Positions 1 through 9,391 of a stretch of DNA of 9,391 nt are shown in pieces (position 1 is the first letter of the stretch; each line of letters opens with the position of its first letter). A program made the position numbers and the translations under genes. The notes under the pieces were generated by a model that saw only the letters and a program-made list of their open reading frames with translations, searched no databases and was not told the origin of the DNA. The DNA is from Pseudomonadota bacterium (GTDB lineage: Bacteria > Pseudomonadota > Alphaproteobacteria > Rhizobiales > Hyphomicrobiaceae): NCBI GenBank assembly GCA_021813195.1, contig JAKALI010000120.1, positions 1-9,391 of the forward strand. The letters run 5' to 3'.

Positions 1-362
1 TCCAGTTTTCCGGCCGGCTGACGCGGCCGTGGCCGGTGCTGTCGGAGATGACGTTTACGCCCTTCACCGCCGCGGCCCTCGGCGCCGCGACCGCGTTGTC
101 GTTCGTCGACGGCATCGTGGGCATCGTCGCCGGCGTCGTCGCCGCCAGCCTGCTGATGGCATACGGCGTACTCGGCTTCGCCGTCATGCACGCGGTCACG
201 CGAGGCATGGCGAGCCGCGGCTTCGTTCTCGCCGGCATTTACGCCTCGGTGCTGATCTTCGGCTGGCCGGTGCTGGCGCTGTGCCTCATCGGCCTGTCCG
301 AGACCTTCTTCCATTTCCGCGCGCGTGCCGCCGTCAAACGCGGCCCGCCGGCTTCAACCTGA
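1..362 (+). CDS. DUF2232-type integral membrane protein, C-terminal part (5' end off the window)
   Basis: The frame is open from the left edge (first full codon at 3) to a TGA at 360-362, so only about the last 119 residues are seen. A GTG at 36 is not a credible start, because coding similarity continues upstream of it. The visible part has two or three hydrophobic stretches (roughly '[20 protein letters not shown]' and '[18 protein letters not shown]') and a short basic tail, so it is an inner-membrane protein. The motif 'HAVTRGM' and the position directly upstream of rplI fit the DUF2232 family, which in many Alphaproteobacteria lies between rpsR and rplI. The molecular role of this family is not established. 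The gap to rplI is 44 bp, so the two are probably one transcript. The family call rests on recall and synteny. Confidence 0.72.
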
Positions 363-390
363 ACTGCCAACACCGTTATCCAAACGATCA

Positions 391-398
391 AAAAGGAG
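391..398 (+). promoter_or_regulatory. Shine-Dalgarno site that sets the rplI start
   Basis: AAAAGGAG lies 8 bases upstream of the ATG at 407 but only 2 bases upstream of the ATG at 401. Normal spacing therefore favours 407, which also gives the N-terminus MEVILLERV typical of L9 proteins. The start at 401 would add only Met-Thr. Confidence 0.75.
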
Positions 399-406
399 TA
401 ATGACC

Positions 407-826
407 ATGGAAGTGATCCTGCTCGAACGCGTTGCCAAGCTCGGCAACATGGGCGACGTCGTCCGCGTCAAGGACGGCTTTGCCCGCAACTTTCTCTTGC
501 CGCGCAACAAGGCGCTGCGCGCCAACGCCGACAACAAGGCCCGCTTTGAAGGCATGAAGGCCGAGCTCGAAAAGCAGAGCCTCGAGCGCAAGGGCGAAGC
601 CGGCAAGGTCGCCGCGAAGGTCGACGGCAAGTCCTACACCATTATCCGCCAGTCGTCGGAAACCGGCCAGCTTTACGGCTCGGTGTCGTCGCGCGACATC
701 GCCAGCCTGATTTCGACCGACGGCGCCTGCGAACCCTTTTCATCATTCAGGCACCGCCACAAGCTGTCTCCGACCGGCGCCAGCATCCGAGCGCCCAATT
801 CACGAATCAATATTGCGAACGCCTGA
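407..826 (+). pseudogene. rplI: Ribosomal protein bL9, broken after about residue 106
   Basis: bL9 is a two-domain protein of the large ribosomal subunit that binds 23S rRNA with its N-terminal domain. Residues 1 to about 50 ([19 protein letters not shown], then [16 protein letters not shown]) are a textbook N-domain. The long connecting helix follows, and then the start of the C-terminal domain (residues about 80-104, including [13 protein letters not shown]). After about Gly106 (position 724) the frame stops resembling L9. The expected segment with the IKTLGLH-like motif is absent, and the frame ends at 824-826 after about 33 unrelated residues. Those bases are the tail of a TetR gene read antisense. 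The product would be 139 residues with most of the C-domain replaced, against roughly 150-190 normally. L9 is dispensable in E. coli, so loss could be tolerated, but an assembly chimera is equally possible. Confidence 0.85.
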
Positions 827-1296
827 TGCTGTTCGGGAAGTGGGCTTTTCGCCGCCCCTGCGGCGCGCAGCTGGCGGACCTGCCTCAGGGTCAGATCGGC
901 CAATTGCTTGAATAGCTCCGGATCGGTTGCGTCGACATTCAGCATCTCGCGCCGGATGTAGGGCAAGAGCATCGGGTGTTCCGCATAAACCTTCCGGACG
1001 GCGGCGTCGCGCGCGCGCCCGAGTTCCGCCCGCGTTCCGGTCGTCGGCGTGGATTCCAGCGCCGTCTGTATCAGGAACGCGACATGCTCTTGAACTGCGC
1101 GGCATAAGCCTTCCTTGCCGCCGAAATGGTGGATGGCGAGGCCGTGGGTCACACCCGCGACTTTCGCTATTTCCCGCAGGCTGACGCCCGCCTCCCCCTT
1201 GGATGCGAAGAGATCGAGCGCGGCGTTGCGAATGCGCGCCTTCGCCGTGAGATCTTCATCCGTGCGCGCGACGGCCGCTTTCTTCGTTCGTTTCAC
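673..1296 (-). CDS. TetR/AcrR-family transcriptional regulator
   Basis: This is a 207-residue one-component repressor-type protein. Residues about 18-68 form the DNA-binding domain: '[15 protein letters not shown]', then the helix-turn-helix '[20 protein letters not shown]' and '[10 protein letters not shown]'. The helical remainder is the ligand-binding and dimer part. The start is GTG at 1296-1294, since no in-frame ATG lies upstream before the promoter region; a GAGG-like site precedes it. It is divergent from the thiolase gene across 113 bp, the usual arrangement for a TetR protein that controls its neighbour, so it probably represses the beta-oxidation operon and is released by an acyl-CoA or the acid. 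This is inference. The last 17 or so residues (from about 190) are encoded by antisense rplI DNA, so the native stop codon has probably been lost and the tail replaced. Confidence 0.85.
718..735. other. Junction between ribosomal-operon DNA and catabolic-cluster DNA
   Basis: To the left, the plus strand codes for bL9 up to about residue 106. To the right, the minus strand codes for a TetR-family C-terminus. The two reading frames overlap tail to tail by 154 bp (673-826), which is far more than expected for convergent genes. The breakpoint is placed by where each protein stops resembling its family, so it is uncertain by about 10-15 bases. No target-site duplication, att core or tRNA gene is evident at this edge, and the matching right-hand edge is not in the window. 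Confidence 0.7.
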
Positions 1297-1322
1297 TACG
1301 AGCCTCGAAATTTGTCGTATTG

Positions 1323-1361
1323 CCCATTTGGGTAACCTATTATACGGATGGTTAGTTATAA
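1323..1361. promoter_or_regulatory. Candidate operator/promoter region between tetR and the thiolase gene
   Basis: This AT-rich stretch lies in the 113-bp divergent intergenic region. It holds three short inverted repeats: CCCA-TT-TGGG (1323-1332), TAACC-N12-GGTTA (1333-1354) and TTATA-N12-TATAA (1340-1361). Palindromes of this size between divergent genes are what TetR dimers bind, and TATTAT or TATAAG could serve as -10 elements. No repeat is long enough to stand alone, and the exact operator cannot be chosen by eye. Confidence 0.35.
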
Positions 1362-1409
1362 GATCAATTCTGCGCGGTGCGCCAGGGAACGGAACCGGGA
1401 AAGTTCGAG

Positions 1410-2582
1410 ATGAGAGAAGCCGTGATTATTGATGCGGTCCGTACGCCGGTCGGCAAACGCGGAGGCGTACTGGCTAAGCAGCGACCGGCCGACCTCCTGG
1501 CGCTGACTCTGAAGACACTGCTGGCGCGCACGGGGCTGGACCCGCACGAGCTGGACGACATCATCGCAGGCTGCGCACTTCAGATGGGCGAGCAAGCCGG
1601 CAATGTCGCGCGTTGGGCCTCCCTTGGGGCCGGTTTGCCCGAGAGCTTGGCGGCGATGACGATCGACCGTCAATGCGGCTCCGGACAGCAGGCGGTGCAC
1701 ATCGCCGCTCAGGGCGTTCGCAGCGGCGAATACGATTTCGCGATCGGATCCGGAATCGAAAGCATGTCGCGCGTGGATCTCGGCCCGCTTTTCAATCCGT
1801 CGGGCGGCCTCGGTCCCTGGTATGGCGAGCGCGCCCTCGCGCGGTACGATGGGAACTTGCTCGCTCAGGGCCCATCCGCCGAACTCGTCGTCAAGAAATT
1901 CGGTCTTACGCGCGAAAGACTCGACGCCTACGGCGTAGAAAGCCACCGTCGCGCAGCTGTGGCGACCGGCTCGGGATTCTTCGCCGATCACCTCGTTCCA
2001 ATCGAGACCGAAACCCCAAACGGCGAAACGATGACGATCACACGCGACGAGGGGATCCGCCTCAACGTCGACGCGGCGCGCATGGCGCAGTTGCGGCCGG
2101 TCTTCGCCAATGACGGCGCGATTACCGCCGGCAATTCCTCGCAGATCAGCGATGGAGCCGCCGCGGTCCTCGTCGCCGAGCGCGCGGCCGCCGAAGCCGC
2201 GGGCTTGCGGCCGAAGGCGATCATCCGCGCGATGGCGGTGGCGGCGGACGATCCGATCCTGCAATTCACCGCCGTTCTTCCCGCCACGCGCAAAGCGCTG
2301 AAACAGGCTGGACTGACGATCGAGGACATCGACCGGATCGAGGTGAACGAAGCTTTCGCCTGCGTACCGCTGATGTTCGCGGACGAATTCGGAATCGACC
2401 TATCTCGGGTGAACGTGAATGGCGGCTCCATCGCCATCGGCCATCCGCTCGGCTCGACGGGCGCGCGCATGATCTGCGATCTGGTTTACGAACTGCACCG
2501 CAGCGGCGGACGCTACGGTTTGCTGACCATCTGCGAGGGCGGCGGCATGGCCAACACGACCATCGTCGAGCGGCTCGACTGA
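1410..2582 (+). CDS. Acetyl-CoA acetyltransferase / 3-ketoacyl-CoA thiolase
   Basis: This 390-residue cytosolic thiolase would cleave a 3-ketoacyl-CoA with CoA to release acetyl-CoA and a shortened acyl-CoA, or run the reverse condensation. It opens with the family signature 'REAVIIDAVRTPVGKRGG'. All catalytic residues are visible: nucleophile Cys89 in 'DRQCGSGQQA', Asn313 in 'NEAFA', His345 in 'NGGSIAIGHPLGSTGAR' and the acid/base Cys375 in 'CEGGGMAN'. The length is normal. The ATG at 1410 is chosen because it gives the canonical N-terminus and is preceded by a purine-rich CGGGAAAG; an in-frame GTG at 1377 would add 11 non-homologous residues. It is the first gene of the catabolic operon, with 73 bp before the ligase. 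In a degradative cluster the thiolytic direction is more likely. Chain-length preference cannot be told; 'CEGGG' in place of the commoner C-terminal 'CIGGG' recurs in thiolases annotated for unusual acyl chains. Confidence 0.93.
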   Translation: MREAVIIDAVRTPVGKRGGVLAKQRPADLLALTLKTLLARTGLDPHELDDIIAGCALQMGEQAGNVARWASLGAGLPESLAAMTIDRQCGSGQQAVHIAAQGVRSGEYDFAIGSGIESMSRVDLGPLFNPSGGLGPWYGERALARYDGNLLAQGPSAELVVKKFGLTRERLDAYGVESHRRAAVATGSGFFADHLVPIETETPNGETMTITRDEGIRLNVDAARMAQLRPVFANDGAITAGNSSQISDGAAAVLVAERAAAEAAGLRPKAIIRAMAVAADDPILQFTAVLPATRKALKQAGLTIEDIDRIEVNEAFACVPLMFADEFGIDLSRVNVNGGSIAIGHPLGSTGARMICDLVYELHRSGGRYGLLTICEGGGMANTTIVERLD

Positions 2583-2642
2583 CGTTTGCAAGCGATCGGC
2601 GTCGCCTTACGAATGCGCTCACGGAAATTCGCATAATAAAAC

Positions 2643-2650
2643 AAGGGAGC
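2643..2650 (+). promoter_or_regulatory. Ribosome binding site of the acyl-CoA ligase
   Basis: AAGGGAGC ends 5 bases before the ATG at 2656. It supports that start over the in-frame ATG at 2692, which has no comparable site. Confidence 0.6.
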
Positions 2651-2655
2651 AAGCA

Positions 2656-4326
2656 ATGGCCCAGGAAATCGTGCGTGGATGCCCCTCGACCATGGGGGAC
2701 GACTTTCAGCTGAATACGACGACGCTCATTCGCCACGCGGCGCGTACGCATGGCGACCAGACGATCGTCTTCCGCACCGCGAACGGAGGATGGGATCGCA
2801 CGACCTATGCGGACACCTATCGCCGCATCTGCAAGGCGGCCGCCGCGTTGCGGCGCTTAGGGATTGCGCACGGCGATCGCGTCGGCGTTCTCGATTGGAA
2901 CAGTCTGCGCCACTACGAACTCTATTGGGCGATCCCTGGCCTTGCGGCCGTCATGCTGCAAATGAACCTACGCCTCGGCCCCGAAGATCTCGGGTACGTC
3001 GTCCAGCACAGCAACGCCTCGTACATCGCTGTAGATGAAACGCTCCTGCCTATCGCCGAGGCGATTGCGCCCCATGCAGGCCGTGTGAATGGCTGGATCG
3101 TGATGACCGATAAGCCGCTGTCGGAGATCAAGACCACTCTCGCCCCGATCTACCACTACGAAGACATGGTTGCGGCGGAAGCGTCGACTTTCGACTGGCC
3201 GATGGTCGACGAGCGCTCGGCCTACAGCGCCTGTTATACGACCGGCACGACGGGTCGCCCCAAGGGCGTCTACTATTCGCATCGCGCCATCTACCTGCAT
3301 GCGATGGCGATGGCGGCGTCGCTTGGCGTCACGTTCGACGACTGCGCCATGCTGATCACCCCGATGTTTCACGGCAATTGTTGGGGGTTGCCCCAGGCCA
3401 TCACGCTGATGGCCAACAAGATCGTCCTGCCGGGCCGCTACACGGCAGAGGACACGGGTCCCCTGACCGACGCGATGATCCGGGAAGGCGTGACGATCGC
3501 CAACGGCGCTCCGGCGATCTTCCAGCCGATGCTCGAGCATATTCGCACCAAGAAACTGCAACCGGATTTCAGTCGTATGCGTCTGCTGTCGGGCGCGACC
3601 GAGCCGCCGCTGGCGATGATGCGCGGCTTCTTCGACGAGACGGGCGCGGAGGTCGTCCATGCCTATGGCGCTACCGAGACGACGCCGTTGGTCGCAGTGA
3701 ATCGGTTCAAGCGCTCTGTGCGCGAAAAGATGAACGACGACCAGCTTTGGGATCTCAAGCGCAAGCAAGGGCTGCCGATGATCGGAATCGACATCGAATT
3801 GCTGGACGAGAACGACAAGGCATGTCCGCACGACGGCGCCGCCGCCGGCGAAATCTGCGTGCGCGGTCCCTGGATCATTACACGCTATCACGACATGCCC
3901 GACGGCGAGGATCGTTTCACGACGGACGGGTATTGGCGCAGCGGCGATGCCGGCTCCATCGACACGAATGGTTACCTGAAGCTGACCGACCGCATCAAGG
4001 ACGTCATCAAGAGCGGCGGCGAATGGATCTCCTCGATCGACATGGAGAACTTGATCATGGCGCATCCGGCGGTTCTGGAAGCGGCCGTGGTCGGCGTGCC
4101 GCACGCCAAGTGGCAGGAAAGGCCAGTCGCGGTCGTCGTACTGCGCGCCGGCGCGCAACTGACCGCAGACGCCCTGCGCGAACATCTGTCGCCGCAATTC
4201 GCCAAGTGGCAATTGCCCGAAAAGATCGTGTTCACCGACAAGGTCGCGCGCACGAGCGTCGGAAAAGCCGACAAGAAGAGCATTCGCGCGGAATATCAGG
4301 ACGCCTATGCAGGGGAAGACGCATGA
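2656..4326 (+). CDS. AMP-forming acyl-CoA synthetase (fatty-acid-CoA ligase type)
   Basis: This cytosolic enzyme activates a carboxylic acid with ATP and CoA to the acyl-CoA, through an acyl-adenylate. It has 556 residues, normal for the ANL superfamily. Core motifs in order: P-loop 'YTTGTTGRPKGV' (Thr195-Val205), 'PMFHGNCWG', 'YGATETTP' (Tyr337-), 'YWRSGDAG' with ribose-binding Asp431, hinge 'LTDRIKDVIKSGGEWISS' (from Leu443) with Arg446, and the adenylation lysine Lys537 in 'SVGKADKK'. All expected catalytic residues are present. The pattern resembles the medium/long-chain and DmdB-like ligases rather than acetyl-CoA synthetases or 4-coumarate ligases, but the acid is not predictable by eye. 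Its stop overlaps the next start as ATGA (4323-4326), which indicates translational coupling with the hydratase. It would commit the substrate to the pathway encoded around it. Confidence 0.93.
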   Translation: MAQEIVRGCPSTMGDDFQLNTTTLIRHAARTHGDQTIVFRTANGGWDRTTYADTYRRICKAAAALRRLGIAHGDRVGVLDWNSLRHYELYWAIPGLAAVMLQMNLRLGPEDLGYVVQHSNASYIAVDETLLPIAEAIAPHAGRVNGWIVMTDKPLSEIKTTLAPIYHYEDMVAAEASTFDWPMVDERSAYSACYTTGTTGRPKGVYYSHRAIYLHAMAMAASLGVTFDDCAMLITPMFHGNCWGLPQAITLMANKIVLPGRYTAEDTGPLTDAMIREGVTIANGAPAIFQPMLEHIRTKKLQPDFSRMRLLSGATEPPLAMMRGFFDETGAEVVHAYGATETTPLVAVNRFKRSVREKMNDDQLWDLKRKQGLPMIGIDIELLDENDKACPHDGAAAGEICVRGPWIITRYHDMPDGEDRFTTDGYWRSGDAGSIDTNGYLKLTDRIKDVIKSGGEWISSIDMENLIMAHPAVLEAAVVGVPHAKWQERPVAVVVLRAGAQLTADALREHLSPQFAKWQLPEKIVFTDKVARTSVGKADKKSIRAEYQDAYAGEDA

Positions 4327-5102
4327 ACGAGCGGGTCGTCCTCGTCGAGACGCATGGTCCGACAGCCCTGCTGACGTTGAGCCGCCCAAAGGCGCTTAAC
4401 GCGCTGAATGGCGAAATCATGGAGCAATTGGTCACCGCGCTTCAGGCGGCCGACGCGGACCCGCAAGTTCGCGCAGTCGTCATCACAGGGTCCGATCGCG
4501 CCTTCTGCGCAGGCGCCGACATTTCCGAACTCGACACTGTCTCGATCGACGACGTGCTCGCGCCGGATGGATTCGGGAGGCGGCTGTTCGACATGCTCGG
4601 AGCCTATCGCAAGCCGTTGATCGCGGCGGTGCGCGGGCTGGCCTTCGGCGGCGGCTGCGAAATCGCGCTCGGATGTGACATTGTCGTCGCAGGCGTGTCG
4701 GCCCGGTTCGGCGTGCCGGAAGTCTCCCTCGGCCTTTTGCCAGGGGGCGGCGGTACGCAGCGGCTCGTCCACGCGCTCGGCAAGGCCAAGGCGATGCGCA
4801 TGCTGCTGACCGGCGATCCGATCTCGGCGGTCGATGCGCTTGCGGCCGGCCTCGTCAGTGATGTGGTCGAAGATGACCAATGCCTCGCACATGCGCTGGC
4901 GGTCGCGGAGCGGATCGCCCGCAACGGACCGATCGCAGTTCAGATGGCGAAGGACGCGGCGCGCGCCGCCCTGGAAGTCGGCCTGTCGCAAGGTCTTGCC
5001 CACGAGAGGCGAAACTTCATCCTGCTTTTTGGCACCGAGGACAAGCGCGAAGGCGTCTCGGCATTTCTCGAAAAACGTCGCCCCGCATTCATCGGCCGCT
5101 GA
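4323..5102 (+). CDS. Enoyl-CoA hydratase (crotonase family), both catalytic glutamates present
   Basis: This 259-residue enzyme hydrates trans-2-enoyl-CoA to 3-hydroxyacyl-CoA. Crotonase landmarks are 'LSRPKALNALN' (about 19-29), the oxyanion-hole segment 'CAGADISEL' (62-70), 'AFGGGCEIALGCDI' with Glu113, and 'FGVPEVSLGLLPGGGGTQRL' with Glu133. Glu113 and Glu133 correspond to the paired Glu144/Glu164 of rat crotonase, so true hydratase activity is likely. The ATG at 4323 overlaps the ligase stop by 4 bases, and the acyl-CoA dehydrogenase follows 14 bp later, so it is an internal operon gene. No 3-hydroxyacyl-CoA dehydrogenase is in view, so the step between this product and the thiolase must be supplied from elsewhere. 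Confidence 0.93.
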   Translation: MNERVVLVETHGPTALLTLSRPKALNALNGEIMEQLVTALQAADADPQVRAVVITGSDRAFCAGADISELDTVSIDDVLAPDGFGRRLFDMLGAYRKPLIAAVRGLAFGGGCEIALGCDIVVAGVSARFGVPEVSLGLLPGGGGTQRLVHALGKAKAMRMLLTGDPISAVDALAAGLVSDVVEDDQCLAHALAVAERIARNGPIAVQMAKDAARAALEVGLSQGLAHERRNFILLFGTEDKREGVSAFLEKRRPAFIGR

Positions 5103-5116
5103 GACTGGAGAGACAA

Positions 5117-6262
5117 ATGACCTATCGCTCGCCTTGGATGAATGCAGAGCTGGACGCCGTTCGCGACACCGCGCGGAAATTTCTCGAAAAGGAATCGGCG
5201 CCCAACCATGAACGCTGGGCCAAGGAGCGTCAGATCGACCGCTCTTTCTGGAACGCAGCCGGCGACCTCGGCCTTCTGTGTGTGAGCTGCCCGACGGAAT
5301 ACGGCGGCGGCGGGGGCACCTTCGCACATGAAGCCGTCGTGATGGAGGAACAGGCGCGCATCGCCGACGATTGCTGGAACTATTCGGTCCACAGCACGAT
5401 CGTGGCACATTATTTCGCGGCCTACGGATCGGACGAGCAGAAGCGGCGCTGGCTGCCGAAGCTGGCGTCGGGCGAGTATGTCGGCGCGATAGCCATGACG
5501 GAACCGGGGACAGGCAGCGACCTTCAGGCGGTTCGCACGACCGCGCGACGCGAGGGCGACCATTATGTCATCAACGGCTCCAAGATCTTCATCACCAATG
5601 GAACGCACTGCGATCTGTTGATCATCGTCGCACGCACGGGCCCTGATCCAGGCGGCAAGGGGCTCTCGCTGATCGTCGCGGAAACCCAAGGGCTGAAAGG
5701 CTTCACGCGTGGGCGTGTCCTCGAAAAGATCGGCGCGAAGGGCGGCGACCTGCGCGAATTGTTTTTCGAGGACATGAGAGTGCCGGTCGTCAATCTGCTC
5801 GGGTCGGTCGAGGGGCAGGGGTTCGTTCAGCTCATGAAGCAATTGCCGCAGGAACGTCTCGCGATCGCCGCCACAGCCGTGGCCTCTGCCGAGCACGCCG
5901 TTGACTTGGCGATCGAGTACGCCAAGCAGCGGAGCGCCTTCGGGCAGACGTTGATGTCGTTCCAGAACACGCGCTTCGTGCTTGCCGAATGTCGCACGGA
6001 GGCTCTGGCCCTCCGGACTTTCATTGACCACTGCATCATGCTTCATCTCGACGGCAAGCTGGACGCAGCGACCGCATCGATGGCCAAATATCTCGCGACC
6101 GACAAGCAGTGTCAGATCATCGATCGCTGTCTTCAGGTGTTCGGCGGCTTTGGATACATGATGGAATTCCCGATTGCCCGTATGTATGCCGCTGCGCGCG
6201 TGCAGAAGATCTACGGCGGTACGAATGAGATTATGAAAGAGCTCATAGCGCGTTCTCTGTAA
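5117..6262 (+). CDS. Acyl-CoA dehydrogenase, long-chain (LCAD)-like active-site arrangement
   Basis: This FAD enzyme (381 residues) introduces the alpha-beta double bond into an acyl-CoA and passes electrons to ETF. Motifs include 'GAIAMTEPGTGSDLQ' (flavin and substrate region), 'NGSKIFITNG', 'AFGQTLMSFQ', 'QVFGGFGYM' and the C-terminal 'KIYGGTNEIMKELIARSL'. The catalytic base is not in the usual C-terminal 'YEGT' motif: Gly367 occupies that site. Instead Glu246 in 'LPQERLAIA' matches the base position of mammalian LCAD and isovaleryl-CoA dehydrogenase, and the C-terminus closely resembles LCAD. The enzyme is therefore probably active on long or branched acyl chains, which is an inference from the family. 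The start at 5117 has a GGAGAG site 4 bases upstream. It is the last gene of the operon. No terminator is obvious after it, and transposon debris begins about 40 bp downstream. Confidence 0.93.
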   Translation: MTYRSPWMNAELDAVRDTARKFLEKESAPNHERWAKERQIDRSFWNAAGDLGLLCVSCPTEYGGGGGTFAHEAVVMEEQARIADDCWNYSVHSTIVAHYFAAYGSDEQKRRWLPKLASGEYVGAIAMTEPGTGSDLQAVRTTARREGDHYVINGSKIFITNGTHCDLLIIVARTGPDPGGKGLSLIVAETQGLKGFTRGRVLEKIGAKGGDLRELFFEDMRVPVVNLLGSVEGQGFVQLMKQLPQERLAIAATAVASAEHAVDLAIEYAKQRSAFGQTLMSFQNTRFVLAECRTEALALRTFIDHCIMLHLDGKLDAATASMAKYLATDKQCQIIDRCLQVFGGFGYMMEFPIARMYAAARVQKIYGGTNEIMKELIARSL

Positions 6263-6299
6263 CCGCAGAGTTGCCGCCATTAGCATTACTTTGACAGAT

Positions 6300-6637
6300 T
6301 TATTCGAGGAGACTCCGGAAAACACGTCTGCAGTGCGGGTATCTGTAAGGTGGGGCGCGGATGAGGGTTGCGATGACGGCGCGGCATATCGCTGGCAGAC
6401 TTGGATGCGGCGGACCCTTCAGGTTGCTTTTTCCCCTGCTCGTCGCAGCGAGGCGACGGCTTTGCAGATAAGCGTATGCGATCATCGTCATCAGCGTAGG
6501 TCGATGCAGACCACGCGATGATCGGCTCTCGAAATGATCGAGACCGTGTCTTCCTTGAACTCTTGATGCGCCTGCTCGCAACCCCAACGGACTTTGATCG
6601 TAGCGGCGAGCGTCTCAAGATCGGTGTCGGGCGGCAG
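6300..6637 (-). pseudogene. IS701-type (DDE) transposase, C-terminal fragment with a frameshift
   Basis: On the minus strand, 'LPPDTDLETLAATIKVRW' followed by 'CEQAHQEFKED' matches the region of IS701-type transposases that carries the last catalytic glutamate (pattern RWxxExxHQExK). The match then jumps frame: 'GLDHFESRSSRGLH', 'RPTLMTMIAYAYLQSRRLA' and a tail ending in 'PHCRRVF' continue it to a TAA at 6302-6300. The shift falls at about 6546-6550, where one base appears missing or extra. Everything N-terminal to 'LPPDTD', including the first two catalytic aspartates, is absent, so the gene is dead. The family call rests on these motifs. Confidence 0.75.
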
Positions 6638-6690
6638 TTGGCGACAATCCGCTCCGGCTTGTGGCGCTTCCTCGGCATTCTGATCCTCCT
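6638..6690 (-). pseudogene. Start of an IS3-family OrfA (truncated after about 13 codons)
   Basis: A strong AGGAGG site (6690-6685) stands 6 bases before an ATG (6678-6676) that begins MPRKRHKPERIVA. This is nearly the standard N-terminus of a widespread IS3-family OrfA (MPRKRHKPEEIVAKLRQ). The match stops at about 6638, where the IS701-type sequence begins in another frame. The helix-turn-helix, leucine-zipper and OrfB parts are missing. Confidence 0.65.
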
Positions 6691-6767
6691 TTTCCGTGTC
6701 CAAAGACATGCTTCCAGGTTGACCAATTCAATGGGGGGCAAGCCGTCCAGCACGATGCGGATTTGTC

Positions 6768-6895
6768 CTCCGCCGAATGCGTCCTGCGCGATCTCCTCGT
6801 CATGTCTGCTCCTGATTCGCAGCGAAAATCCTCGCCGCCGTCAGGCAGGAAATCCACTTATGCGACTGTCCGAATTTGCGGAGCCAGCTCTGTCA
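6768..6895 (-). mobile_element. 5' end of a second IS3-like element with OrfA start
   Basis: Read on the minus strand, GAGCTGGCTCCGCAAATTCG begins at about 6893. It resembles the terminal repeat region of IS3-family elements. After about 90 bases an AGGAG site (6813-6809) precedes an ATG at 6803-6801 that encodes MTRRSRRTHSAE, which is like the N-terminus of IS3-type OrfA proteins (MTRRxRRxHSxxFKAKVA). Similarity is lost after about 12 codons. The putative element end is about 20 bp from the stop codon of the adjacent crotonase gene. Terminal-repeat identity is by recall and not verified. Confidence 0.45.
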
Positions 6896-6914
6896 GGCGC
6901 TCGTCGCATTCTCT

Positions 6915-7697
6915 CTATCTACCCTGCCAGACCGGCGCACGTCTTTCGGCGAAGGCACGGGGCCCCTCGACGGCGTCCTGACTGGCATAGACGACTTCGT
7001 GCAGCCGCTTGCCCCGTTCCAACCCACCAGCACACCCCAGATCCATCGTCGCCCGCACACTGGCCTTGGCCGCGATCACCGAGAGCGGCGCGCCTCCTGC
7101 GATGCGAATCGCAAGATCGTGGGCACGGGCGCGCACCGCGTCAGGCGTGTCCTCGAGGTAGTTGGTGAAGCCGTAGTCGTGCAGGCGCTCGATCGGCATC
7201 AGATCGCCCGTCAGGATAATCTCCATCAGGATCGGCTGAGGAAGCATCGATAGCGCCGGCGCAGCCCAAGGCGAGCCACGGCCGATCTTGACTTCGGTGA
7301 TCCCGACCTTGGTTCCCTTGAGCCCGACCCGCAGATCGCAGTTCAGAGTCAGCAACATCCCACCCGCCATTAGAGATCCAGTCATCGCGGCGATGATCGG
7401 TTTGCGGCAGGCGCGCATCGTTTCGTGAAACGGGTCGTGCATCTTGCTGAGAATGTCGACGCCCTCATGACGCGCTATCTTGGCTGCTTCCTTCAGATCG
7501 AGCCCGGCGCTGAATACGCCGCAGTCCGCCGAAGTCAGGATTGCAACTCTGACCGTATCGTCGGCCTCGATCCGCTTCCATGCATCAGTCAACCCGTTCG
7601 CCGCTGCGACCGACAGCGCGTTCTTGCGCTCGGGCCGCTTGATGCAGACCGTCGCGACGCCGCTATCAACAGAAACTTCGATCGGATTGACTTCCAT
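6915..7697 (-). CDS. Crotonase-family protein (enoyl-CoA hydratase/isomerase) lacking one catalytic Glu
   Basis: The 260-residue protein has the crotonase fold signatures 'IKRPERKNALS' (19-29), the oxyanion-hole segment 'FSAGLDLKEAA' (62-72), 'GSLMAGGMLLTLNCDL' (107-122) and 'VGITEVKIGRG' (131-141). Only one of the two usual catalytic glutamates is kept: Glu135. The position equal to Glu144 of rat crotonase is Leu115. Such enzymes often act as isomerases, hydrolases or other variants rather than hydratases, so the reaction is left open. The start at 7697 is preferred because an AAGGA site lies 8 bases upstream; a longer frame would need a TTG at 7736. It sits 76 bp behind the substrate-binding protein gene on the same strand and is probably the last gene of that operon. 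Confidence 0.87.
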   Translation of the reverse strand: MEVNPIEVSVDSGVATVCIKRPERKNALSVAAANGLTDAWKRIEADDTVRVAILTSADCGVFSAGLDLKEAAKIARHEGVDILSKMHDPFHETMRACRKPIIAAMTGSLMAGGMLLTLNCDLRVGLKGTKVGITEVKIGRGSPWAAPALSMLPQPILMEIILTGDLMPIERLHDYGFTNYLEDTPDAVRARAHDLAIRIAGGAPLSVIAAKASVRATMDLGCAGGLERGKRLHEVVYASQDAVEGPRAFAERRAPVWQGR

Positions 7698-7738
7698 CAC
7701 TTCAGTCCTTGGAGAGTGTATGAATGATGAGCTCAAGC

Positions 7739-7765
7739 GGGCGCCTGCGCATTGCGCAGGCGCCC
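7739..7765. terminator. Strong stem-loop between the binding-protein and crotonase genes
   Basis: GGGCGCCTGCGC and GCGCAGGCGCCC form a perfect 12-bp GC-rich stem around the loop ATT. It begins 8 bp past the stop codon of the substrate-binding protein, in the direction of minus-strand transcription. No T-run follows on either strand, so it is not a classic intrinsic terminator. It may act as a partial terminator or protect the 3' end of the upstream mRNA, giving more binding protein than crotonase. Confidence 0.6.
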
Positions 7766-7773
7766 TGCATCCG

Positions 7774-9018
7774 TCACTCGACGTTGAATTTTGACGAATT
7801 CTCCTTGATCACCTCCCACACCACGTCGGTATAGTCCGCGCTCCACTGGGTGAGCGGCGCCCACTTTGTGCCGTCCCACTGCTCAACTCGCGTCTTGCCT
7901 CCACCACCGTGATCCGTTGCGGTCACCGTGATCGGCGACATCACACCATTCCCGTCAAAATTTTCGATGGATTCATATCCATCCTTCAACTTTTCGGCGC
8001 TTAGCGGCCAGCCGTGTTTCTTGATTGCAATTCGAGCAGCCTCGAAGCCTGTCACATAAATCGCCAAGCCTGTGTTGTAGTAAACGTCATGTACCGAAGT
8101 CTCCGGTCCGCTGCCTTGGCCCTTGGCATACAGATTCTGGAGCAAGGTTTTCACAAGAGGCACTTCTTGGCCGCCCGCAACATTGGTGCCCCGAAGAATG
8201 CCCTTGGCCGCTTCCGCGCCGATGTTCTTGATGTCGACCTCGTTCAACCAATTCACTGAGAGGTAGTGATCGATGGGAAAACCGTTGCGCTTCATCTCCT
8301 TCGAGGCGACGACGTGACCGCCAGCCAATATCCAGCTGATTACATAGTCGGGTTTGTCTCGCCGGATCTGTGTCCATGCACTGGCCTGATCGCTGCCAGG
8401 GAGCGGCACTGGATAGAGCTTCAATTCGAAGCCCTCAATTTTCGAGAGAGTCTTGAGAATCTCGATGGGTTCCTGACCGAAGGGATAGTCAAGATAAATG
8501 AACCCGATCTTGGCGCCGTTCAACTTGCCTCCCAACTTGCCCTTGATGAAGGCTACATCATTGGCCGCCTGCTGCCAGTAGGTTGGGCCCACTGGAAAAA
8601 TCCATTTGAAGACTTTCCCGTCGACCGCATCGCCACGGCCGACAAAGGATTGCATTATGAGGTTGCCGTCCTTCATGGCGCGCGGCAGCACTGCATTGGT
8701 CACGGGTGTTGAAAGAAAGTTGAAAGCGAACACGCCCTCTCGTTTCAGCTGTTCGTAACATTCGACACCGCGCTGGGGTTCATTGCCGTGATCACGTACG
8801 ATAATTTCGACGGGATGGCCGCCGATGCCTCCGGCCTGATTCACGTATTTGGCGAGGTCTTGTGCGGCCTGTGCCACCTGCGGTGAGATAAAGGTATAGG
8901 ATTTGCTGAGATCGAAGCACGCGCCGAAGCGGATCGGCTCCTGTGCCGAGGCGGCATGACCAGCCAGCCCGAGGACGACTGTCACCGCAAGAACTCTAAC
9001 TGTATGGAAGATGCTCAT
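7774..9018 (-). CDS. ABC transporter substrate-binding protein, branched-chain amino acid/aromatic type (Peripla_BP_6)
   Basis: This 414-residue protein is exported to the periplasm: the first 25 residues form a signal peptide (basic HTVR, hydrophobic 'VLAVTVVLGLAG', cleavage after 'ASA'). The mature part has a type I periplasmic binding fold: 'IRFGACFDLSK' at the start, 'AAQDLAKYVNQAGGIGGHPV' (51-70), 'RDHGNEPQRGVECYEQL' and 'KIGFIYLDYPFGQEPIEIL'. Cys34 and Cys87 could form a disulfide like the one in LivJ-type proteins. The relatives deliver amino acids, aromatic acids or other small carboxylates to HAAT-type ABC importers. The start at 9018 has a perfect AGGAGG 6 bases upstream; a longer frame to 9225 lacks homology. 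It follows a paralogous binding protein gene by 101 bp. In this context it probably feeds the substrate, or a related acid, to the CoA pathway. Confidence 0.9.
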   Translation of the reverse strand: MSIFHTVRVLAVTVVLGLAGHAASAQEPIRFGACFDLSKSYTFISPQVAQAAQDLAKYVNQAGGIGGHPVEIIVRDHGNEPQRGVECYEQLKREGVFAFNFLSTPVTNAVLPRAMKDGNLIMQSFVGRGDAVDGKVFKWIFPVGPTYWQQAANDVAFIKGKLGGKLNGAKIGFIYLDYPFGQEPIEILKTLSKIEGFELKLYPVPLPGSDQASAWTQIRRDKPDYVISWILAGGHVVASKEMKRNGFPIDHYLSVNWLNEVDIKNIGAEAAKGILRGTNVAGGQEVPLVKTLLQNLYAKGQGSGPETSVHDVYYNTGLAIYVTGFEAARIAIKKHGWPLSAEKLKDGYESIENFDGNGVMSPITVTATDHGGGGKTRVEQWDGTKWAPLTQWSADYTDVVWEVIKENSSKFNVE

Positions 9019-9024
9019 ATTGAA

Positions 9025-9030
9025 CCTCCT
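9025..9030 (-). promoter_or_regulatory. Shine-Dalgarno site of the complete binding-protein gene
   Basis: The minus strand reads AGGAGGTTCAATATG, a consensus ribosome site with 6-base spacing. It fixes the start at 9018 and excludes the longer frame. Confidence 0.75.
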
Positions 9031-9119
9031 GGTGATATTTTTCGATTTGATTGCACTCTTCATGCGCCGAGCCAATTTGCCAACAGCCGCGTGAATCGGT
9101 TCTTGCCGACGCTCTCGCG

Positions 9120-9391
9120 TCAGTTGCCTTTGAATTTCGACGAGTTCCCCCTTACCACCTGCCAGACCACATCCTGATACGCCGCGATCCAGTCGGTCTG
9201 AGGCGCCCAGGCGTTTCCATCCCACATCTCGATCCGTGTGCGACCCCCGCCGCCGTGATCCCCCGCCGTCACGGTGACGGGCGCCATTAGCCCACTGGCG
9301 TCATAATTCTCGATCCTCTCTAGCCCGGCCTTGTAAGATTCTGCGGTGATCGGGTGGCCGTGCATAGCGACCGCCTTACGCGCAGCTTCAA
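9120..9391 (-). CDS. Second ABC substrate-binding protein, C-terminal end (5' part beyond the right edge)
   Basis: About 90 codons are visible, ending at TGA 9122-9120. The frame runs through the window edge (EAARKAVAMHGHP...), so the Met at 9365 is internal and not the start. The segment aligns without gaps to the C-terminus of the neighbouring binding protein: by eye about 53 of 89 positions are identical, including 'VTVTAGDHGGGGRTR' against 'ITVTATDHGGGGKTR' and the shared 'NSSKF' near the end. It is therefore a tandem paralogue with the same periplasmic ligand-binding role. The two genes are in the same direction and 101 bp apart, so they are probably co-transcribed. Permease and ATPase genes are expected further right but are not seen. 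Confidence 0.87.
   Translation of the reverse strand, partial: EAARKAVAMHGHPITAESYKAGLERIENYDASGLMAPVTVTAGDHGGGGRTRIEMWDGNAWAPQTDWIAAYQDVVWQVVRGNSSKFKGN

Follow-up and report, generated by a model that had tools for sequence, protein, structure and literature searches.

The rplI–tetR fusion of contig JAKALI010000120.1 is most likely a chimeric join at a word of about 22 bp

Gene content of the window

The window, by which we mean the whole stretch of 9,391 bp that was analysed, carries part of the ribosomal protein gene rplI at its left end and a catabolic gene cluster over the remainder. An rplI-containing frame on the forward strand (2..826) and a tetR frame on the reverse strand (673..1296) overlap tail to tail by 154 bp (673–826), as had originally been predicted. 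In the list of open reading frames, bL9 starts from the ATG at 407, with a further in-frame ATG at 401. The segment upstream (3..362, forward strand) belongs to the gene that, in the lineage of the left arm, lies ahead of rplI, and represents its 3' portion; the start of that gene lies off the contig, and the segment has no Pfam match at E ≤ 0.01. The native part of rplI occupies 407..727 (forward strand) and encodes bL9 residues 1–107, namely the N-domain, the helix and the first half of the C-domain, as judged from Pfam and NCBIfam profiles, two protein relatives (P0002 and P0003) and the DNA of a related locus (L090). At 728..826 (forward strand) the frame runs on for 32 codons and a stop through antisense tetR, opposite TetR residues that are common to the regulator's relative P0121, and this continuation appears spurious. 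On the reverse strand, 706..1296 encodes a near-complete regulator of the TetR/AcrR family (PF00440, P0121), which is probably native up to residue 197, P0121 itself having 204 residues. Its frame is prolonged at 673..705 (reverse strand) by an apparently spurious stretch of 10 codons and a stop through antisense rplI, which mismatches P0121 and is recognizable in antisense L090. The 154-bp overlap thus arises because each frame reads beyond the join. The join itself, at 706..727, consists of about 22 bp that fit both putative parents by comparison with L090 DNA and P0121 protein, serving as rplI codons on the forward strand and as tetR codons for residues 191–197 on the reverse strand. It lies 0.7 kb from one contig end, the other being at 9391. 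The window appears to be a complete contig, its own bL9 record (P0001) being linked to a single contig of 9,391 bp.

Divergent from tetR, the forward strand carries a thiolase (1410..2582; PF00108/PF02803, and TIGR01930 with 412 bits against a cut-off of 240.55), an acyl-CoA ligase (2686..4326; PF00501/PF13193), an enoyl-CoA hydratase (4320..5102; PF00378) and an acyl-CoA dehydrogenase (5117..6262; Pfam). About 650 bp (6263–6914) separate the dehydrogenase from a convergent second enoyl-CoA hydratase, and the four frames in this interval have no Pfam match above the cut-off. On the reverse strand at 7774–9389 lie a substrate-binding protein (PF13458) and another frame, truncated at the edge of the contig and without a Pfam match; the ends of these two frames are visibly similar by eye, in the manner of tandem duplicated uptake genes. 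No structured RNA in the window reached the Rfam gathering score.

The left arm and its relatives

The original prediction held that bL9 is canonical to about residue 106 and that antisense TetR follows, and this is borne out, the native part reaching residue 107 (base 727). Pfam matched Ribosomal_L9_N completely and Ribosomal_L9_C over positions 2–44 of 86 only (protein residues 64–105), and the NCBIfam model TIGR00158 was matched over positions 1–104 of 148. The protein is hence not a complete bL9: its N-domain is whole, and it stops midway through the C-domain. Among the 120 proteins listed, P0002 and P0003, the latter named 50S ribosomal protein L9 and derived from a Proteobacteria MAG, are respectively 98% and 97% identical to it over 78% of the query. 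The window copy is like the bL9 of the Pseudolabrys group over residues 1–107, but is without the second half of the C-domain and without the acidic tail. Among the same 120 proteins (8,000 scored), the fused tail occurs in none but the window's own record (P0001), the others covering at most 83% of the query.

When L9 residues 1–105 were used as a query against genome contigs, the best 80 of 574 confirmed stretches were kept; the three nearest loci among these are titled Pseudolabrys in two cases and Rhizobium sp. Q54 in the third. By BLASTN, the locus of Pseudolabrys sp. Root1462 (L002) is 85.8% identical to the window over 1–724, where the match ends, and its counterpart of the gene at 3..362 is a 321-aa frame at 4991–5956. 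Window DNA from 300 to 735 was matched in 40 of the 43 genomes of Root1462's genus, a few of them over about 30 bp only, and one of these genomes, G094, proved much closer than Root1462. Its locus, L090 in the Pseudolabrys group, is 95.6% identical to the window over 1–727, and the similarity collapses at 728. The two sequences stay in register, with 32 scattered differences up to 705, none in 706–727 and unrelated DNA from 728 onwards. Past this point L090 continues as rplI, which in G094 encodes 206 aa and is located on a 122,640-bp contig.

A comparison of the rplI locus in relatives, which had been proposed together with the original prediction, yielded no truncated copy. The L9 frame measures 178–246 aa, and so at least 178 aa, in 110 of 110 related loci; none is cut near residue 107, and all extend 71–139 residues beyond it. 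These loci comprise the best 80 of 574 from the contig scan and 30 from the DNA search of the genus, so that some genomes are counted twice, and the lengths at L109, L110 and L113 were counted by homology.

The right arm and its relatives

The regulator matches TetR_N over its full length (PF00440, E = 6.1e-12, 45.6 bits, cut-off 24) and so possesses the DNA-binding domain of its family. Its nearest relative among the 120 listed of 181 that passed is P0121 (204 aa, 5 contigs), with 94% identity over residues 1–199. Up to residue 197, which is encoded by window positions 706–708, 11 substitutions separate the two proteins, in addition to the start codon; beyond it they differ at residues 198, 200, 201, 202 and 204.

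Judged by its predicted genes, the right arm is an ordinary cluster of tetR, thiolase, acyl-CoA ligase, enoyl-CoA hydratase and acyl-CoA dehydrogenase genes. Loci L088 and L089 (genomes G811 and G849) have these five kinds of gene in identical order, again with tetR divergent; their counterparts of the thiolase, ligase, hydratase and dehydrogenase show 71, 78, 71 and 81–83% identity and those of TetR 52%. Synteny ends past the dehydrogenase, the window's second hydratase reaching 27–28% and the substrate-binding proteins having no match. L9, which was among the queries, has no match within the 19.9-kb stretches around tetR in either locus. The nearest named acyl-CoA dehydrogenase, from Camelimonas fluminis (P0244), is 83% identical, and a JGI protein (P0241, longest contig 1,628 bp) is 100% identical.

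A cluster on the Rhodococcus plasmid pREC1 (NC_007486.1, 69560-83182; L155) likewise brings together all five gene types, ordered as in the window and with tetR divergent, but has an additional CoA-transferase gene between tetR and the thiolase. There, a Tn3-family transposase is found 3' of tetR, the side on which the window has its join, and the tetR beta-oxidation cluster may therefore move. The occurrence of this beta-oxidation module (window 673–6262; L088 and L089; pREC1) in an alphaproteobacterial family and on an actinobacterial plasmid raises the possibility that it travels between phyla. An Acinetobacter plasmid carries similar genes arranged differently, and its displayed stretch contains no tetR.

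Whether the two arms share a genome

At E ≤ 1e-20 the regulator went unmatched in 391 genomes sampled from the family of the left arm, with up to 8 candidates scored in each, and at E ≤ 1e-10 it had no match in the 27 further genomes behind the loci (all candidates scored). Within the left-arm genus, 39 of 43 genomes gave some match at E ≤ 0.001, the best at E = 4.1e-9. Matches at about 1e-58 were found in two of 397 genomes, G811 and G849, of the family of the genome behind L056, titled Beijerinckiaceae bacterium. The same two stood out among the three genomes of G811's genus, and no others were found in 397 genomes of the order (at most 7–8 candidates scored per genome). For this search and for that of the left arm's family, a blank outcome is uninformative unless a known positive is among the genomes. 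Viral contigs held no relative of the regulator. The ligase had no match at E ≤ 1e-150 among 385 genomes from the class, an uninformative outcome, as at most three candidates were scored in each and there was no known positive. The substrate-binding protein at 7774–9225 was matched at E ≤ 1e-60 in one of the 43 genus genomes, with 32% identity. At the DNA level, the three nearest genomes yielded three long matches (685–830 bp) to window 728–6262, at 66–68%, alongside numerous shorter ones.

Composition was compared as well. The G+C content of the right arm is 0.622 over 728–6727 and 0.602 over the final 6 kb, a piece that overlaps the first, as compared with a mean of 0.650 (SD 0.011) in 28 fragments of G094. 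In tetranucleotides, the right arm is farther from G094 than is any of these fragments. It is nonetheless nearer to G094 (0.203 and 0.237) than to G849 (0.269 and 0.298) or G811 (0.298 and 0.324). The last two genomes are thus not the source of the right arm, and composition alone names no other. Taken together, distribution and composition fit an origin of the two arms in different genomes, although most of this evidence, the odd composition and patchy distribution included, would be expected of a horizontally acquired island in one genome too. Each arm continues otherwise in its own closest relative, from base 728 in L090 and from residue 198 in P0121.

The join at 706–727

DNA of the left-hand relative fits the window as far as 727 and protein of the right-hand relative fits it back to 706, so that about 22 bp are common to both. 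Both parents thus appear to share a word of this size at 706–727, the length in bases being deduced on the right side from the P0121 protein only. Read antisense in the tetR frame, rplI of G094 gives A-P-S-V-E-I-R, the seven residues that P0121 has there, and antisense L090 reads on as A-P-S-V-E-I-R-V-A-M across the spurious tail at 673..705. A C-terminal pattern P-x-hydrophobic-x-[VIL]-[RK] is present in 63 of 120 TetR relatives listed from the 181 that passed. Being common but not universal, it leaves the argument about the join to rest on P0121.

Such words are not rare. By a composition formula, two genomes of 4.5 Mb should by chance have about 12 words of 22 bp in common, and 16 were observed when roughly 190 kb of G094 were compared with 239 kb of G811 plus G849, a count that takes overlapping words of one longer match singly, includes conserved genes and is thus not a clean rate.

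Could the overlap be natural, that is, an old arrangement of tail-to-tail genes in some lineage? Both frames, rplI on the forward and tetR on the reverse strand, are indeed open across the join. Against this, L9 runs on for its further 71–139 residues in every one of the 110 loci, P0121 ends at 204 aa with another tail, the sister DNA of L090 breaks exactly at 728, the tetR stretches of L088 and L089 hold no L9, and no relative with the same overlap was seen. Because the relatives of rplI and of tetR both end elsewhere, we reject a natural gene overlap, to which we give practically no chance; the original prediction had likewise held that two conserved families would not naturally overlap in this way.

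Origin of the contig

The original prediction left two explanations standing, namely a catabolic island in rplI and a chimeric contig. The second is favoured by the common word, the differing relatives of the two arms, the full-length L9 in 110 of 110 loci and the absence of the fused tail from all other proteins among the 120 listed; the first gained no positive support, as neither a recombinase in the 14 frames scanned with Pfam nor a second boundary within the contig was found. With a probability of roughly nine in ten, we consider the contig to be a chimera, probably a metagenome misassembly, that joins the DNA of two bacteria. The rplI–tetR fusion is then most likely ordinary and represents no new gene arrangement.

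In this chimera, bases 1 to about 727 would come from an alphaproteobacterium of the Pseudolabrys group, in which the locus ends in rplI, and bases from about 706 to 9391 from another organism with a tetR-regulated beta-oxidation cluster. An assembler or a chimeric read would have joined the two at the word of about 22 bp, one copy of which would lie in rplI and the other, in antisense orientation, towards the 3' end of tetR. The two composite frames, with their L9 and TetR tails, would be by-products. This presupposes that the DNA of the right-hand parent equals that of the window over the whole of 706–727 and that the joining took place in silico or during library preparation, not in a cell. 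A word of this length that fits both parents is what a short-k-mer misjoin would leave. In the accessible part of one report, k-mers common to several species are described as linking them in assembly graphs and giving chimeric contigs (PMC7299287). As far as that text goes, the window resembles such chimeras: its arms have different relatives, similarity to each of these is lost abruptly, a short word is compatible with both, and the join is near a contig end. The difference is that for the present contig the mechanism can only be deduced.

Alternatively, a mobile or acquired catabolic segment may have recombined into rplI at the word of about 22 bp in a single cell, leaving a bL9 with the rRNA-binding N-domain, half of the C-domain and a chance tail of 32 residues. 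Viability is no argument against such an event: the available portion of a study in Escherichia coli describes delta-rplI colonies that could not be told from the wild type and only a subtle drop in growth yield (PMC4399890), so that a cell would probably survive with a truncated L9. The related cluster on pREC1, with its Tn3-family transposase 3' of tetR, also speaks for it, as does a right arm that departs from G094 in composition yet lies nearer to it than to G811 or G849. On the other hand, no recombinase was found by Pfam in the 14 frames; the contig has short repeats, none of them next to the join; only one boundary of the segment is visible; an assembly misjoin would leave the common word equally well; and neither a truncated L9 among the 110 loci nor the fused tail in another of the 120 proteins was met. 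We therefore regard a genuine event in one cell as highly improbable.

Implications

A more specific version, in which a real strain received a plasmid- or transposon-borne beta-oxidation cluster in rplI through chance homology of about 22 bp, has a slightly smaller chance still. If it were true, a core ribosomal operon would tolerate a catabolic island together with a bL9 reduced to the N-domain, one half of the C-domain and a random extension. The main value of the contig, which we read as a chimera, is cautionary. A word of some 22 bp compatible with two unrelated genes suffices for a fusion of open reading frames that looks biological; in this case the word interrupts neither frame and provides the TetR frame with a plausible end. 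The three-part test used here, which consists of the closest relative of each arm, the exact break points and the common word, is applicable to other gene fusions on metagenome contigs.
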